From IMG/VR virus record IMGVR_UViG_3300047548_001191, positions 1-27,756 of that record: DNA of 27,756 bases. One strand, 5' to 3'. A model generated the notes under the pieces. The model had not been told where the DNA came from and made no database searches. It saw only the letters and a list, made by a program, of their open reading frames with translations. Both the position numbers and the translations under genes were made by a program. Below are positions 2,510-21,112 of this stretch, one piece after another; position 1 is the stretch's first letter; each line of letters begins with the position of its first letter. Source of the DNA: a virus.

Positions 2510-3900
2510 TCGAGATATGCGAAAGACTGTGAGAGGCAGTCTGCAAGGTCAGGTGAGTGACCGAGCAGGTTGATGACTTCTTCTTTATCGTTGAGCCCGA
2601 GGGTATCGGTAGCGTTCAGGTCATAACGTATTGCCATAAGCTCGCGTTTGATAGCGGAGAGGAACTGCATGGGCATGGAAAACGGCCTGAAGTAGCGTCC
2701 TGACGGGTCGAGTCTATTGCGAAGTTGCCAATAGGAATAGCTGCGAATATTCCGAAATGCTTTATTGGCTGGCTTGCCGCCCATATAGGGTGTCGGATTG
2801 AAAATGCCGATTGAGCGGAGCCGGAATGCGAAGTCGGCACCGATACCGGCCTGGTCGAAGGTGATGCGATGGTCGGAGACGTCGTGCATTCGTTTGAACT
2901 CGAATGCTTTCCATGCTGTTTCTTCCATGGTGGCGATGCGTGATTCCCAATAATCGACGATACCGTTGTCGTCGCGAACAATGACAACCGAGCGGTCGCC
3001 GCCAGAGCCTGTACCGAGGTCGATCGAAATACGTTTTGGGCCGCCGGGTGTCCAAGGAATTGCTTCGCAGGCCAACAGCCAGTCGAGCGGGATGAGTGTC
3101 TGGGAATCGGCTTCGGGGAACTCGGCCAGGATGTGCGGCTTCCACCAGAGCGAGCCTTCGCCCCACTCGCGGCGCATCTTGTCGAGCCATCCTTTTGACG
3201 CCATACCGCGAGCGGAGTGTTCGACAGTAATGTCGGGTGATTCTGTAGAAGGTATGGTAATCAGATTGACCTTCTTGTCCGGCATGGAGACTTGCTTCAT
3301 GCAGCGTTCGTAGAACACGCCTTCAGGACGGAGCGGGTTGCCGATAAGGAGTGTGCGGTGCGGGGCAAGGGAGTCGAGTGCTTCGAAGATTTCGCGATCT
3401 ACACCGGATGCTTCATCGACGATAAAGGCGAGGTTGCCTGCATGGTGGCCGGAGAGGCGTTCCTTTTTCTTTGTAGAGTAGGCAAGCACCCACCAATCCT
3501 CGGCAATTTCGATCTTCATGGGCTGCTTGTAAACTCTTGCCTTGGGGAAGAGTTTGTATGGGCATTCGTGGAACGCCTTGAGGATATACGCCCAGCAGAC
3601 TTCCTTGAGCTGTGTTTCGGACGGCGCAGTAACAATAACTTTGGAGTTTTTGTGGTACATGAGATACCACAGCACAAGGGCGGCAACAGAGAAAGACTTG
3701 CCGACAGAGTTGCCTGCCTTGCAGAGGGTTGTTTCGTAGGATCGGAAACTTTCGGCAAGCTCTGACTGCTTGCTCCAGAATGAGGGCCGATTGAGAACGA
3801 CCCTGTTGAATCGGGAGATAGACTGGCGACATGGCTCGTATTCGTCGAACAGCCAACGCGGGGTTGGCTTGGAGATCATAACGTCGGCGGATACTCGCAT
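2506..3900 (-). CDS. terL: Terminase large subunit (ATPase/nuclease)
   Basis: 464 residues from ATG 3900, which lies 2 nt after the stop of the upstream small gene. A longer open frame to 4239 is an out-of-frame shadow of that gene. The ATPase half shows Walker A AGNSVGKS (62-69), Walker B FIVDEASG (159-166) and the coupling motif LLIGNP (184-189). The nuclease half shows acidic residues in ISIDLGTG (D294), ITFDQAG (D349) and DLADCLSQ (D451/D454), the usual RNase H-like set. The enzyme pumps DNA through the portal into the prohead and cuts concatemers. All key motifs are present and length is typical. Confidence 0.95.
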   Translation of the reverse strand: MRVSADVMISKPTPRWLFDEYEPCRQSISRFNRVVLNRPSFWSKQSELAESFRSYETTLCKAGNSVGKSFSVAALVLWYLMYHKNSKVIVTAPSETQLKEVCWAYILKAFHECPYKLFPKARVYKQPMKIEIAEDWWVLAYSTKKKERLSGHHAGNLAFIVDEASGVDREIFEALDSLAPHRTLLIGNPLRPEGVFYERCMKQVSMPDKKVNLITIPSTESPDITVEHSARGMASKGWLDKMRREWGEGSLWWKPHILAEFPEADSQTLIPLDWLLACEAIPWTPGGPKRISIDLGTGSGGDRSVVIVRDDNGIVDYWESRIATMEETAWKAFEFKRMHDVSDHRITFDQAGIGADFAFRLRSIGIFNPTPYMGGKPANKAFRNIRSYSYWQLRNRLDPSGRYFRPFSMPMQFLSAIKRELMAIRYDLNATDTLGLNDKEEVINLLGHSPDLADCLSQSFAYLD

Positions 3901-3902
3901 CT

Positions 3903-4307
3903 TTAGATGTTCTCTTCTGTTTCGTCGATTTCCTCGCTTTGTACGTCGAGAAATTCGAGGGCAGGCATAGGCGTATCGGAGACGATCGGGCCGGACGGCG
4001 GGCCGTCGGCGAGGGAGTGTGTGATAAGGCTTTCGAGGGAGGAGAGTTTTTCGAACTTTTCGCGGGAGAGTTCTGCGGCCTCGACAGCAAGAGCATTCTT
4101 TATGTTGGAGTTGTCCATTTCGAGCTGCACCCTTGCGGCGGTAAGCATATCCTTCTCGGAGTATTTGCCGTCCGCGTTCTCGATAATTTCCGCAACTCGC
4201 CGGGCTGTTACGCTTTTCTGCTCCGCCGAAACCGGCCATTGTTCTTTGACAGATTTGCGGACAATCGACAAAAATTCTCTTGCCGGAACTCCTTCTATTT
4301 GCCCCAC
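3903..4307 (-). CDS. Probable terminase small subunit
   Basis: 134 residues from GTG 4307, chosen because AAGGGGG sits 8 nt upstream. A TTG at 4355 would add 16 residues but lacks a ribosome site. The protein is mostly helical and charged, with 'SVTARRVAEIIENADGKYS' and 'NIKNALAVEAAELSREKFEKLSSLESL', and an acidic C-terminus. I see no signature motif. The call rests on its position immediately before terL with a 2-nt gap, its size, and the repeat-rich non-coding DNA just upstream, where small terminases usually bind. It could instead be an unrelated late gene. Confidence 0.5.
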   Translation of the reverse strand: MGQIEGVPAREFLSIVRKSVKEQWPVSAEQKSVTARRVAEIIENADGKYSEKDMLTAARVQLEMDNSNIKNALAVEAAELSREKFEKLSSLESLITHSLADGPPSGPIVSDTPMPALEFLDVQSEEIDETEENI

Positions 4308-4420
4308 TTGCAGTTCCCCCTTACCTCGAAATGCAGTAGCAAAATCTACCGCCAAGTCTTGTACTTTTTGTCAGGGTATGGTACGCTAGGCGTGGGTTGG
4401 ACGGACTATGCGTACTACCA

Positions 4421-4442
4421 CAGGGTATTAACCAATACCCTG
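4421..4442. promoter_or_regulatory. Perfect palindrome of the GTTAATAC family
   Basis: CAGGGTATT and AATACCCTG are perfect 9-bp inverted arms around AACC. It is one of seven intergenic copies of the dispersed GTTAATAC-type element, lying upstream of the terminase operon on the minus strand. Likely an operator. The bound protein is unknown. Confidence 0.55.
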
Positions 4443-4716
4443 TTTGCACTTTACCACTTTGTACCGTTTTCGAAAACCGTTGTAACTAAATTTTCACAGT
4501 GCCAACCGAAAACGGTTGTGCCTACTACTCAGTTGTGCCGGCACAATCACCACCACCGATGGGGTGTGCAGATTCACCAAGTTGGTGTAAATCCAAAAGG
4601 GGGTGTGGGGCTCACGCCACTGGGTTTCCTTCCTGATGGTCAATCACCCTTTAAAGTGGTGATGATTTGGTCGTGTTGCCTGTCGTGGGTCGGTGCCAGT
4701 CGTCGTAGGTCGGATG

Positions 4717-4750
4717 CCCTGCCACTGGGTTAACGGTCCAGTGGGCAGGG
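4717..4750. terminator. Strong hairpin downstream of the 4827-5165 gene
   Basis: CCCTGCCACTGG (4717-4728) pairs with CCAGTGGGCAGGG (4738-4750), with one bulged G and a 9-nt loop. It sits 77 nt past the stop of the minus-strand gene ending at 4827, so it could end or stabilise that transcript. There is no T-run after it on the minus strand, so intrinsic termination is uncertain. Confidence 0.35.
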
Positions 4751-4772
4751 TAAAGGAGAAAAGGGTTGCAGC

Positions 4773-4830
4773 GTGTCACAGGTTGCTAGGTGTCACAATC
4801 CTGCACGGTGTCACCTGGTGCGGGTGTCAA
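4773..4830 (+). repeat. Four iteron-like GTGTCA(C/A) direct repeats
   Basis: GTGTCAC occurs at 4773, 4790 and 4808 and GTGTCAA at 4824, spaced 17, 18 and 16 bp. The spacing is close to a helical turn and a half. The last copy overlaps the stop codon of the neighbouring minus-strand gene. Such arrays bind oligomeric proteins in origins, cos/pac sites and operators. Confidence 0.5.
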
Positions 4831-6377: not shown

Positions 6378-6659
6378 TCAGGCGGGTGGTTTTGTGGCTT
6401 TCTCAATGGCCTCTAAAGCCTGTTTCAATGCCGGTTCCTCCCAGATCATGCCGTTGGCATTTGCTTCTTTTACAAGATATCGCAATGCTGCCAACAAATC
6501 CGGCGCGGCTGCAATCAGTCGTGCGTCTGCATCTGTGGCGACAAAACGCGCAACAGTCGATGCCTTGTCGTAAAAACTACCACGCCAAACACTGCGGCTA
6601 AGACGGTTTTCATATTCAGGCCCAACTTGCCAAGGCCCTGGGGTATAGTTCGCACTCAT
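6378..6659 (-). CDS. Conserved phage protein of the TPGPW / AAPDLLAAL type
   Basis: 93 residues from ATG 6659, with AAAGGT 7 nt upstream. It opens MSANYTPGPWQVG and carries 'DADARLIAAAPDLLAALRYLV' in the middle, the two hallmarks of a widespread small phage protein family of unknown role. Length is normal for the family. It is separated from its neighbours by 56 and 183 nt, so it may be expressed with the upstream 6716-7051 gene or on its own. Confidence 0.8.
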   Translation of the reverse strand: MSANYTPGPWQVGPEYENRLSRSVWRGSFYDKASTVARFVATDADARLIAAAPDLLAALRYLVKEANANGMIWEEPALKQALEAIEKATKPPA

Positions 6660-13421: not shown

Positions 13422-13936
13422 GTTTCCAGATCCTTTACCGCAATCGTTTTGTAAGGTTTCGCCTCTGTTCCTGCCGATTGTTTCAGTAGGTGAATAGTGT
13501 CGGCATGGCGTTGAGCGTGTTCGTGTGGAAACTGCTTCATTTGGTTTGTTTCAATCAGAAAACTCATCGACTGTTGCATGACAACAGCCGCCGTTGCCGC
13601 AACTCTTCGAGGGCAAAGCGGCTCGGCGTTGCTTGCGTCCGTGCTTTCCAGTTGTTTTACCTCTAACTCAAGATGGCGGACATACAAAGCCACCTGCTGC
13701 AAGAGCCTTCCGTTATTGTCAAGCATGAGATCATCTCTGCCCCAATACCTGATTAGTTGCTTGGCTTCCTTCCACGGGTCATCCGCTTGTCTTTCAAGTT
13801 CCTTTATTTTGTCTTGAATGCGGATTCCTGTCTCAATCACAAGTTCAGAGACATAGCCGCCATGCTTTCGCATGACAATTTGTGCCGCTTCAAGTGCGGC
13901 TTTGTCGGCCTTCAGTTGTTCGATCTGTTCGTTCAT
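13412..13936 (-). CDS. Hypothetical coiled-coil protein
   Basis: 174 residues from ATG 13936, coupled to the XRE gene by an ATGA overlap, with GGCAAGGA upstream. Three helical stretches with heptad character: 'NEQIEQLKADKAALEAAQIVM', 'RIQDKIKELERQADD' and 'LLQQVALYVRHLELEVKQL'. The C-terminal half contains 'AATAAVVMQQSMSFLIETNQM'. No family identified. Tight coupling to a DNA-binding protein suggests they could work together, but this is inference. Confidence 0.7.
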   Translation of the reverse strand: MNEQIEQLKADKAALEAAQIVMRKHGGYVSELVIETGIRIQDKIKELERQADDPWKEAKQLIRYWGRDDLMLDNNGRLLQQVALYVRHLELEVKQLESTDASNAEPLCPRRVAATAAVVMQQSMSFLIETNQMKQFPHEHAQRHADTIHLLKQSAGTEAKPYKTIAVKDLETCN

Positions 13937-14151
13937 TTCCTTGCCCTCCCGAAAAACTCATTCATATCAAAGTCATACAGTTTTGCCAGCTTGGCATGTT
14001 CAAGCGTTGACACGTGCCGGACACCATTCTCAATCAGACTAATCGCTGGACGTGGCACTTTTAATTCGTCGGCAACTTGCGACTGAGTAAGACCTGCTTT
14101 TTCTCGTTTTCTTTGCAGAAATTGGCCCAAGTCTCGCATGGTGGGTTGCAT
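13933..14151 (-). CDS. XRE-family helix-turn-helix regulator
   Basis: 72 residues from ATG 14151, with GGGGGGAG about 6 nt upstream; the frame to 14214 belongs to the previous gene in another phase. Almost the whole protein is one HTH_3/XRE domain: 'LGQFLQRKREKAGLTQSQVADELKVPRPAISLIENGVRHVS' (residues 8-48), with the usual TQSQVAxxL and PRPAISLIENG recognition helix. No C-terminal dimerisation or cleavage domain, so it is more Cro-like than CI-like. It is a candidate binder of the GTTAATAC-family sites, without direct evidence. Confidence 0.85.
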   Translation of the reverse strand: MQPTMRDLGQFLQRKREKAGLTQSQVADELKVPRPAISLIENGVRHVSTLEHAKLAKLYDFDMNEFFGRARK

Positions 14152-14152
14152 T

Positions 14153-14524
14153 TCACTCCCCCCAGACTGGAACGACCTTTTTGTCGATGCTATCGCCGAT
14201 AGATTCCAAAGCATCTTGTTTTGAAAAATACACGCGATACTTTGTACTGCCCATGATCCCTCTTGCTCTCGCCTCAGAATCAGGCTCTCCGGCGGCGATC
14301 ACCGCCCAGAGTGGCTTGCGTTCAGGCTGAGGAATGTCCTCTGGCGGGTTGTCCTGAATCAGCCTGACAATCTCACGAGCCAATGAATCCAACTTGAGGT
14401 CGATTCGGTCAATCATTACGTCGATAGCTTTGTCTGAGATCATGTCTGGAACATACTTGTTAAAAGACCGAAGGCACTCTTTCATGCCCTGAATACGTTT
14501 GTACTGCTCAAGTAGCTCTTTCAT
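14153..14524 (-). CDS. Hypothetical protein
   Basis: 123 residues from ATG 14524, 3 nt after the thyX stop, with AAGG just before that stop. Helical N-terminus (MKELLEQYKRIQGMKECL, then 'VMIDRIDLKLDSLAREIVRLI'), a PERKPLWAVIAAGEPDSEA linker and a C-terminal 'YRVYFSKQDALESIGDSIDKKVVPVW'. No family recognised. Its end is 1 nt from the XRE start, so ThyX, this protein and XRE are one transcript. Confidence 0.7.
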   Translation of the reverse strand: MKELLEQYKRIQGMKECLRSFNKYVPDMISDKAIDVMIDRIDLKLDSLAREIVRLIQDNPPEDIPQPERKPLWAVIAAGEPDSEARARGIMGSTKYRVYFSKQDALESIGDSIDKKVVPVWGE

Positions 14525-15493: not shown

Positions 15494-16159
15494 TTACCAC
15501 TGCATGACAGCCATCTCGTCGTCTATGCTTACCGAAGCCGCCGAAGGCTCGGTTTTGATTGTTTTTCGAGGAGGCGGCAGGTCAAATCGGATATTGCGTA
15601 CCCATCCAGTAAACGCTCCTTCCTGCGAAAGAAGAGGTCTATCTGGATCAATTCCGTTTCTCTTCAACCATTCACGCTGACGATCTCTTACTGCAAGGTT
15701 TTCTCGCCTTGCGGAGGCCATTGACTCAGGAGACGCAGCAGGCACACCGGCGTAAGCGACCGATGCCGGGCAATCGCACCGATACGCTGCCTTGAACAGC
15801 TCTCCCGAGCGATGCACCTGATCAACCATAACAACGCCAATACCATCGCAAAACTCACATGTGCAGTCGGGCAAAGCAGGCGACGCAGCAGGAGCGAGAT
15901 CGCCTTTTTTGTTTCCTGCGTTAATGAAATCAGCAAAGGCTGGCAGCACCGCGCCTATCCCCTTGCCGATCGTCGTAAGCGAAAAGTCGATTGCAATCTC
16001 TTTTAGCTTCTCTGTCTTGCCGACCAAGCCAGTTTTCATCAACAGCTTTTGCCAGGCCGGAAGCAGGCTGGTTATCATTCGCTCGACCGCTTCGCTTTCC
16101 GGGTTGTAGCCTCTCGTCTGATAAACGCCTTCAACGTATTCGCTGATCCAATTATCCAC
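15494..16159 (-). CDS. Putative replication-module protein with zinc-binding cysteines
   Basis: 221 residues from GTG 16159, with AAAGGGGG upstream and an 8-nt overlap with the O-like gene. The N-terminal part 'MDNWISEYVEGVYQTRGYNPESEAVERMITSLLPAWQKL' is helical. Near residue 98, 'CTCEFCDGIGVV' followed by 'AYRCDCP' makes a CxCxxCxG...CxC cluster, as in zinc knuckles of helicase loaders and DnaJ-like proteins. The position directly after the initiator suggests a helicase-loader partner (lambda P analogue). There is no AAA+ motif in it, so this is only a positional guess. Confidence 0.6.
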   Translation of the reverse strand: MDNWISEYVEGVYQTRGYNPESEAVERMITSLLPAWQKLLMKTGLVGKTEKLKEIAIDFSLTTIGKGIGAVLPAFADFINAGNKKGDLAPAASPALPDCTCEFCDGIGVVMVDQVHRSGELFKAAYRCDCPASVAYAGVPAASPESMASARRENLAVRDRQREWLKRNGIDPDRPLLSQEGAFTGWVRNIRFDLPPPRKTIKTEPSAASVSIDDEMAVMQW

Positions 16160-17054
16160 GGTTGGCCCCCTTTCCTTGGGCAGCCTGAGCAGCTAAAGCA
16201 GCTTCCGCCTTGTCCCATTCTTTCTGAAAGTCTGACCACATCGCATTCCGCTTCGCTTTGCGGGCCGCTCTTGCCTCCTCCTTGGCCTTTTCGGGGTTTT
16301 CCCAGCCAATCTTCCATTCAGTCTTTCGCAAGTGATTGTAGAGCCTTCCAGGCGTCTCGTTGCCCTTGACTCGTTTCAGCGCGTACTCGACAAAGCCGGA
16401 ATCGATCTGGAGCTGATTGACTGATGCCAGAATGCCGTCAGCATCCGGGCCGAGAATCGACAGCACCTTGTCTCGAAGTCCGGGCGGAAACTTGGGAGCG
16501 ATCAGCTTGGGCGATTCGATCCGCACTAACCGCTGAGGCTGAGGCGTCGGTTCGCTTGAAGGAATCGGGTCAAGAAAGTTTTCCGAATTGCTGCTGGTGA
16601 TCGCACTCTTATCAGCACTAATACGACTGGTTGTACTCTTATTAAAACCCTTGGTATTAATACCTATATAAGAGGGTGGTGTTTTTGCCACCTTCAGAGG
16701 GTGGTGTTCTTGCCCCCCTCTGAGGGTGGTGTTTTCACCACCTTCGTAAAAGCATGGTGATTTGTCGGATGGCTCGATTATTGTTACTGTCACAATAGAG
16801 CCTTTGCCGGGAACAGCTTCCCTTGTTCGCTTGATCAGCCCGGCGTCTTCCAGTTCCCGATAATGATCTTTAATTCGATCTTCGGACATACCTCTCAGTT
16901 TTGCCACCTTCACGACAGTGGGTGTTTCAAACCAGCTACGATGTTGCTGGTTGAAAAAGCTGTAGATGGCAAGAATCGTCAATCTGGCTCCATCGCTGAT
17001 ATCGGCGTCGAACCAGCCATGAAACATTTTTGTGTAGCCAGCAGGATTTCGCAT
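16152..17054 (-). CDS. Replication initiator-like protein with N-terminal winged helix
   Basis: 300 residues from ATG 17054, with AAGAGGA before it; the frame further out starts at a TTG within the control region. Residues 1-95 form a helix-turn-helix/winged helix ('RLTILAIYSFFNQQHRSW', 'TVVKVAKLRGMSEDRIKDHYRELEDAGLIKRT', then a basic beta wing). The middle (100-190) is low complexity and contains the iterons in its DNA. The C-terminal region is basic and helical (EEARAARKAKRNAMWSDF, then 'DKAEAALAAQAAQGKG'). The O-type layout (winged DNA-binding domain, origin inside the gene, loader-like gene behind) supports phage replication initiation. Confidence 0.7.
   Translation of the reverse strand: MRNPAGYTKMFHGWFDADISDGARLTILAIYSFFNQQHRSWFETPTVVKVAKLRGMSEDRIKDHYRELEDAGLIKRTREAVPGKGSIVTVTIIEPSDKSPCFYEGGENTTLRGGQEHHPLKVAKTPPSYIGINTKGFNKSTTSRISADKSAITSSNSENFLDPIPSSEPTPQPQRLVRIESPKLIAPKFPPGLRDKVLSILGPDADGILASVNQLQIDSGFVEYALKRVKGNETPGRLYNHLRKTEWKIGWENPEKAKEEARAARKAKRNAMWSDFQKEWDKAEAALAAQAAQGKGANRG
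16646..16745. other. Candidate phage origin: three 25-bp iterons plus AT-rich element
   Basis: GAGGGTGGTGTT-type repeats begin at 16672, 16697 and 16722, exactly 25 bp apart, each ending in a GCC/CC-CC block. Flanking them at 16647-16671 is an AT-rich stretch with GGTATTAATACC and TATATA. Because 25 is not a multiple of three, the repeats are translated in three different frames (ENTTL, QEHHPL, AKTPPS), so selection acts on the DNA. This matches the lambda pattern of iterons plus an AT-rich unwinding region within gene O. Confidence 0.7.
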
Positions 17055-17100: not shown

Positions 17101-17154
17101 TCTTCCATGGGGACATGGTTAGCCTTGCAGTAACCCGTGCTGCAAGGTTTTTTT
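17098..17154 (+). ncRNA. Predicted small RNA divergent from the initiator gene
   Basis: From the promoter at 17064-17091 a transcript would start near 17098 and end at a T7 run at 17148-17154, about 57 nt. It contains two hairpins: CCATG-GGGA-CATGG (17105-17118) and CCTTGCAG/CTGCAAGG (17123-17147). No frame of note lies in it. Arrangement and size recall lambda OOP RNA, which is transcribed opposite the O gene. The first loop offers a GGGA, the kind of motif CsrA binds. The exact start is a prediction. Confidence 0.55.
17123..17154 (+). terminator. Rho-independent terminator of the small RNA
   Basis: CCTTGCAG, nine-base loop, CTGCAAGG, then seven T on the plus strand. A textbook intrinsic terminator in the plus orientation, with no plus-strand gene nearby to explain it. 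The minus strand lacks the T-run. Confidence 0.75.
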
Positions 17155-19112: not shown

Positions 19113-19146
19113 CGTACACCCCAAAATCGAGTAAAAGATCGTCCGG

Positions 19147-19335: not shown

Positions 19336-19523
19336 TAATACTCCTTGCATGTTGAGAAATGTCACCGCGAAAGCCGCTGGTGTACTCTTTTTACTTTATT
19401 TACTTTAAAAGCAATTTTCAACATAAAAGTAAGAATAATTTTCATTTTCTTTTATATGTGCGAATGTATAATAAGTATAGCTTGTGCAATTTCGCACTTG
19501 CACTAAAACCAGAGGTAATTTTC
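19336..19523. promoter_or_regulatory. Divergent early/lysogeny control region
   Basis: Leftward: TTGAAA (19416-19421), 17-nt spacer, TAAAGT (19393-19398) on the minus strand. Rightward: TATAAT at 19467-19472 with a weak -35. GTGCGAA (19458-19464) and TTCGCAC (19491-19497) form a perfect inverted repeat enclosing that -10. GTGCAA (19484-19489) and TTGCAC (19498-19503) form a second. The DNA is AT-rich throughout. The layout is like a switch region of a temperate phage. Confidence 0.6.
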
Positions 19524-19924: not shown

Positions 19925-21112
19925 ATGGTAGGCTACCAAAGAATCGTCGAATTTACCGTTATGGGACGCAACAAGATCGCTATGCCGAACTACCTTCTGC
20001 ACCGGCCAACAGGCCAGGCAAGGGTGATTATGAACGGTCGCACAATATATCTTGGTAAGTATGGTAGTCCAGAAAGTCAGGCAAAATATCAACAAATTCT
20101 GGCACACGTTATGGCTGTAGGCGATTTGCCGGTCATACCGGAAGAATCGATTCTCATTGCTAACCTCGCTGCCCAGTATATCGCCGCACTCAGGCATGAC
20201 AATAAAACCGAATCCAACGAACCAGACCAGCAGGAGCGTGGACTGCGAGAACTGGTATTATTGTTTGGTACTCTACCAGCGGAAGACTTCACCCCGAGTA
20301 AACTGATCGCACTGAGAGCCAAGTGGATTAACAAGCCGCTCGCAAGAGCGACCGTGAATATGTATCACAGCTATGTGATCCGCTGCTTCCAGTGGGGAGT
20401 GGAACAAGAGCTGGTGCCGGCCGATGTCTGGGTCACACTGAAATCAGTTCGCAGGGTCACGGAGTCGAAAGTCATGAAACCGAGAAAGCTGGTTGAGCCG
20501 GTGGCATGGGAGTCTGTGGAGGCGATTCGCCCGTTTGTCTCGTCGGTCGTCTGGGATGCGGTGCAGGTGCAGTGGCTCACCGGAATGCGGGCGTCGGAGG
20601 TGCTGACCATGACACCGGGCCAGATCGACCGCTCAGACTGGAGCTATCGGCCATCAAGGCATAAGACCGGGTATCGGGGCAAGAAGCGGGTCGTTTTCCT
20701 CGGGCCGCAAGCCCAGAAGATCATAGCGAACTATCTGGAACGGCCGGATAGTTCACCCCTGTTTTCGCCCAAAGAAGCTCAGGCAGAGCGACTAAGGACG
20801 ATGCGGGAGCGACGCAAGAGCAAAGTGCAGCCATCGCAGATAGACCGATCCAAAGACGATCCGCAGAAGACACCGGGCGACCAATATACGGCCGCTTCTT
20901 ATGGAAAAGCGATCCGAAAAGCTTGCAAACGCGCGGGAATTGAACCGTGGGGCACGCACCAGCTTCGACATGCGGCTGCAACCCGGTTCAGGCAAAGCTA
21001 CGGGCTGGACGCAACGCAGGCGGCACTTGGGCATTCGCACGCAAAAGTCACCGAGATCTATGCCGACCTGGATCTTTCGAAGGCTCGCAAGATTGCCGAC
21101 GAGATCGGTTAG
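19925..21112 (+). CDS. int: Tyrosine recombinase integrase
   Basis: 395 residues from ATG 19925; ATG 19961 is an alternative. The N-terminal domain includes an arm-type part (RPTGQARVIMNGRTIYLGKYGSPES). The catalytic domain has R222 (TGMRASEVL), K247 (HKTG), H345-x-x-R348 (HQLRH), H370 (LGHSH) and the nucleophile Y379 (EIYAD). All active-site residues are present. It would recombine attP with the host tRNA-Arg gene. Its stop overlaps that of the minus-strand gene 21109-21357 by four bases. The N-terminal layout reminds me of integrases from Planctomycetes. Confidence 0.93.
   Translation: MVGYQRIVEFTVMGRNKIAMPNYLLHRPTGQARVIMNGRTIYLGKYGSPESQAKYQQILAHVMAVGDLPVIPEESILIANLAAQYIAALRHDNKTESNEPDQQERGLRELVLLFGTLPAEDFTPSKLIALRAKWINKPLARATVNMYHSYVIRCFQWGVEQELVPADVWVTLKSVRRVTESKVMKPRKLVEPVAWESVEAIRPFVSSVVWDAVQVQWLTGMRASEVLTMTPGQIDRSDWSYRPSRHKTGYRGKKRVVFLGPQAQKIIANYLERPDSSPLFSPKEAQAERLRTMRERRKSKVQPSQIDRSKDDPQKTPGDQYTAASYGKAIRKACKRAGIEPWGTHQLRHAAATRFRQSYGLDATQAALGHSHAKVTEIYADLDLSKARKIADEIG

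Follow-up and report, generated by a model that had tools for sequence, protein, structure and literature searches.

The window analyzed here, IMGVR_UViG_3300047548_001191, is a 27,756-nt record of an uncultivated virus, and all positions are counted in it. It very probably carries a lambda-type replication origin embedded in the gene of its own initiator. Three palindromic iterons lie within this gene, the gene's weakest stretch of duplex begins 1 nt beyond the last of them, and the segment is under constraint at the level of DNA. The N-terminal half of the encoded protein is related to O-like replication initiators. The case is a well-supported further example of a known arrangement and not a new kind of origin, and it gives an uncultivated virus group a defined, testable origin. 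Its components are as follows.

16152..17054, minus strand: gene of the initiator (300 aa, beginning with ATG), made up of a winged-helix region near the N-terminus (about residues 18-76), a linker bearing the probable origin, and a C-terminal part without a family match
16722..16745, minus strand: iteron 1, the first along the gene, GAAGGTGGTGAAAACACCACCCTC; palindromic, its perfect inner arms of 7 bp flanking a 4-nt centre
16697..16720, minus strand: iteron 2, GAGGGGGGCAAGAACACCACCCTC
16672..16695, minus strand: iteron 3, GAAGGTGGCAAAAACACCACCCTC
16611..16670, minus strand: AT-rich tract, a probable DNA unwinding element; no other 60 bp of the gene form a weaker duplex, and the tract begins 1 nt beyond the final repeat

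Iterons and weak duplex inside the initiator gene

The direct repeats occupy 16671-16745, or 0.34-0.43 of the gene length, with start-to-start distances of 25 and 25 bp and units 88-92% identical to the first copy. Tandem Repeats Finder (TRF) reports the same interval (period 25, 3.0 copies, 82% matches, score 108) as the top-scoring tandem array of the window, and the window contains three matches to a degenerate form of the unit, where shuffled sequence would give 0.02. Since the repeats lie in coding sequence, their similarity was also compared with 20,000 synonymous-codon shuffles in which the protein was held fixed. The units agree at 63 of 75 sites, a value that none of the shuffles reaches (mean 37.7, maximum 56). 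A period of 25 places the units in three different frames (0, 1 and 2), so that they encode EGGENTTLR, RGGQEHHPL and LKVAKTPPS. The original prediction of three near-identical 25-bp units within coding sequence, read in different frames into different peptides, is thereby borne out. Every unit is a 24-bp imperfect palindrome, reading GARGGKGGYRARAACACCACCCTC on the gene strand. DnaA boxes number two in the window, which equals chance expectation, and none lies near the repeats.

Duplex weakness, calculated as nearest-neighbour stability over 60-bp stretches, places the AT-rich tract at the edge of the array. Among all such stretches of the 27.7 kb, 16610-16669 ranks as second weakest. Guanine plus cytosine (GC) content is 27% at 16630-16670 and 27-34% across the tract, compared with 51% for the gene. 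On the gene strand, TTATATAGGTATTAATACCAAGGGTTTTAATAAGAG lies directly 3' of the units and contains the perfect palindrome GGTATTAATACC (16653-16664). An AT-rich neighbour of the repeats had been predicted as well, and it extends farther than first described, to about 16610. The weakest duplex of the window is located at 19397-19456, an intergenic site between the integrase gene and a small minus-strand open reading frame (ORF).

From this arrangement we infer a mechanism of the lambda type. The initiator, acting as a dimer, probably binds each of the three 24-bp iterons through its N-terminal winged-helix region. With help from supercoiling and from transcription passing leftward through the gene, the resulting nucleoprotein complex would melt 16611-16670. 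The melted tract could then admit the replicative helicase, perhaps via the product of the overlapping gene at 15494-16159.

DNA-level constraint in a relative

Evidence for constraint comes from a comparison with IMGVR_UViG_3300042905_005706 (L002), the sole close relative found with the initiator gene. Its copy of the gene is 86% identical in DNA, with the start codon kept as GTG. The original prediction held that absence of the repeats from relatives that keep the gene would speak against an origin; in L002 the AT-rich tract and each of the three repeats are retained. Across codons 103-155, synonymous change affects 2 of 49 comparable codons, compared with 75 of 209 in the rest of the gene (Fisher p=1.5e-6), and a depression as strong arises in 3 of 100,000 permutations in which the best position is chosen freely. 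Amino-acid change over the same codons is not significantly reduced (4/53 against 29/247 elsewhere, p=0.47). Synonymous change is thus nearly absent where amino-acid change shows no significant reduction, indicating selection on the DNA. The earlier claim that it is the DNA and not the peptide that is conserved had only the three-frame argument behind it and is now backed directly. Suppressed synonymous change together with unreduced amino-acid change provides a usable signature for such origins in metagenomic phages.

The units contain four substitutions, which are confined to unit positions 9 and 21 and fall at codon positions 3, 3, 1 and 2. An identical C-to-T difference occurs in units 1 and 2, where it is silent in unit 1 and changes P to S in unit 2. 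The AT-rich region (gene nt 385-465) contains a single substitution. A fourth half-site in the window, at 16899-16912, is absent from L002 and is taken as chance. The two viruses also share an integrase gene (19925-21112, plus strand, in the window; 910-2097 in L002) that differs at 37 of 1188 bases, whereas the initiator gene differs by 14%. Judged by these sequence differences, the integration module is a mosaic exchange between the window virus and L002.

Searches of phage and plasmid records recovered no close relative of the initiator, including a tblastn search against plasmids that returned no match. Repeating the viral scan with a two-sequence profile identified no relative beyond L002. 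The sole match in genome contigs (L003) is a 27-residue chance match lacking the initiator gene. Likewise, an iteron scan of viral contigs recovered L002 only, plus two single chance matches (L094 and L095), which lie within ORFs unlike initiators.

An O-like initiator and its gene context

The N-terminal half of the initiator matches PHROG replication-initiation families, namely phrog_270 (2e-9), the O-like phrog_678 (3.4e-7), phrog_428 and the O-like phrog_345 (6.6e-4). Lambda O itself matches phrog_678 (1.7e-35) and phrog_345 (5.2e-17). Pfam HTH_36 is also matched at 2.6e-5, slightly under the gathering cut-off. The family of lambda O proper, phrog_277, is absent from the initiator's matches at E values up to 1, and a search of PDB sequences gave no match. 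Based on family matches, the DNA-binding part places the initiator in a broad O-like group, and full-length orthology to lambda O was not found. The original description of the initiator as unrelated-looking is corrected by these N-terminal matches; the C-terminal part has no family match.

The initiator gene is followed in its operon by a gene that occupies the place of lambda P.

15494..16159, minus strand: next operon gene, 221 aa; overlaps the initiator end by 8 bp, in place of lambda P; no family match

Its product matches neither the lambda P-type loader family phrog_109 nor any other family. From its position, it is a possible helicase loader. The protein is conserved and carries a CxCxxC...CxC cysteine motif; its AlphaFold model is too poor to use (predicted local distance difference test score, pLDDT, 38). 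A variant of the lambda-type origin, in which a distantly O-like DNA-binding domain is joined to a C-terminal part and a partner (15494-16159) of unrecognised type and recruits the helicase by a route not yet described, is conceivable and rather unlikely. Upstream of the initiator gene, the gap contains a 12-pair terminator-like hairpin on the plus strand (17121-17149), amid minus-strand genes.

Lambda provides the closest point of comparison. In lambda, O dimers bind dyad-symmetric iterons and, when the DNA is supercoiled, open a 40-bp A+T-rich region beside them (PMC5043065). Lambdoid origins, including those of P27 and 933W, have their iterons and AT-rich tract midway along gene O (PMC7466680). 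When the lambda origin was run as a control through the same script as the window gene, its iterons spanned 0.39-0.48 of the length of gene O, a relative position close to that found here, and its weakest 60 bp began 4 nt after the last iteron. In both systems the linker of an O-like initiator gene holds dyad-symmetric iterons, an AT-rich tract follows immediately 3' of them, and the next gene overlaps the end of the initiator gene. The initiators are also alike in length, at 300 aa here and 299 in lambda. The earlier proposal of a lambda-like origin is supported by these correspondences. Unlike lambda, which has four 18-bp units at spacings of 20, 24 and 23, the window has three 24-bp units at an exact 25-bp spacing. 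The iteron sequence differs too, and neither the C-terminal half of the initiator nor the downstream gene has detected similarity to O and P.

The same plan appears elsewhere among 80 viral loci fetched with RecT as anchor. Two of these viruses, L037 and L018, carry palindromic arrays of unlike sequence inside O-like initiator genes, with periods of 22 and 24 bp; in each, the array separates the N-terminal domain from the C-terminal part. The L037 initiator (3851-4786, minus strand) matches phrog_270 (1e-14) and the O-like families 391 and 678. Its array (4382-4494) consists of 22-bp palindromic repeats of the GTAGTTCAAATTCTGAACTAC type in an equivalent relative place, and its weakest duplex overlaps the array end. 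The L018 initiator candidate (2830-3936, minus strand) was detected through similarity to the L037 protein (3e-10), and its array, at about 3275-3418, contains TTGCGTGCGACGCAA palindromes at 24-bp spacing. Both differ from the window in having more repeat units, of unrelated sequence, and proteins that share just 15-17% identity overall. For several further phrog_270 matches no similar array is seen within the gene, and the plan is therefore recurrent and not universal. Among RecT-linked viruses, it recurs with differing iterons in initiators that barely resemble each other. Iteron plasmids such as P1, F, RK2 and R6K similarly place an array of initiator-binding repeats beside an A+T-rich opening region; unlike theirs, the window initiator has no match to Rep-type plasmid families beyond a sub-threshold one to RP-C.

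Alternative explanations

Several observations weigh against an in-gene origin. Cumulative GC skew has its minimum at 19,128, about 2.5 kb from the repeats, and its maximum at 6,397; gene classes also change there. GC skew had been put forward as a check on the replication start, and with a minimum at 19.1 kb it lends no precise support to 16.7 kb. In addition, an hhalign comparison of the two-sequence initiator profile with lambda O gave nothing, and the AlphaFold model of the initiator (pLDDT 38) is too poor to confirm a winged helix. The weakest duplex of the L018 gene does not lie beside its array, and the constraint rests on one pair, since L002 is the only close relative found to carry the gene. 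The skew turns at 6397 and 19128 may reflect either classes of genes or the direction of replication; the turn at 6397 occurs even though the main predicted genes to its left and right are on the minus strand.

Regulators, too, typically bind repeated palindromic sites, and the window encodes an XRE-type regulator (13933-14214). The array could thus be an operator through which the initiator or a phage regulator controls transcription, with replication starting elsewhere. This is improbable: the array lies in mid-gene, has no second copy at any promoter or elsewhere in the window, and contains no promoter-like site, while the gene's weakest duplex starts 1 nt from it. Slightly less probable still is a function in mRNA, with the palindromes forming hairpins that regulate how an early transcript is translated, degraded or terminated. 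The RNA of the segment folds well at -45.5 kcal/mol (z -4.7), as any tandem palindromes would, and the gene strand has one weak terminator-like match. Against this reading, the four unit differences from L002 are non-compensatory and weaken the fold by about 7 kcal/mol (-41.4 to -34.3). Furthermore, the best conserved part is the AT-rich tract, most of which lies outside the hairpins, and RNA hairpins do not need near-identical units at a fixed 25-bp spacing.

The remaining explanation, that the array arose by neutral tandem duplication within a protein linker and resembles its L002 counterpart because the two viruses recently exchanged a short piece of DNA, is the most improbable of these. 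It draws on the mosaicism seen between the integrase and initiator genes, and a short, recent exchange tract could mimic part of the conservation pattern, given a single pair. However, the units have diverged at four sites, always at position 9 or 21 and in differing codon phases, and neutrality would not favour the same positions. Nor does a neutral array predict the adjoining weak duplex and the O-like gene context, both of which accompany the repeats here.
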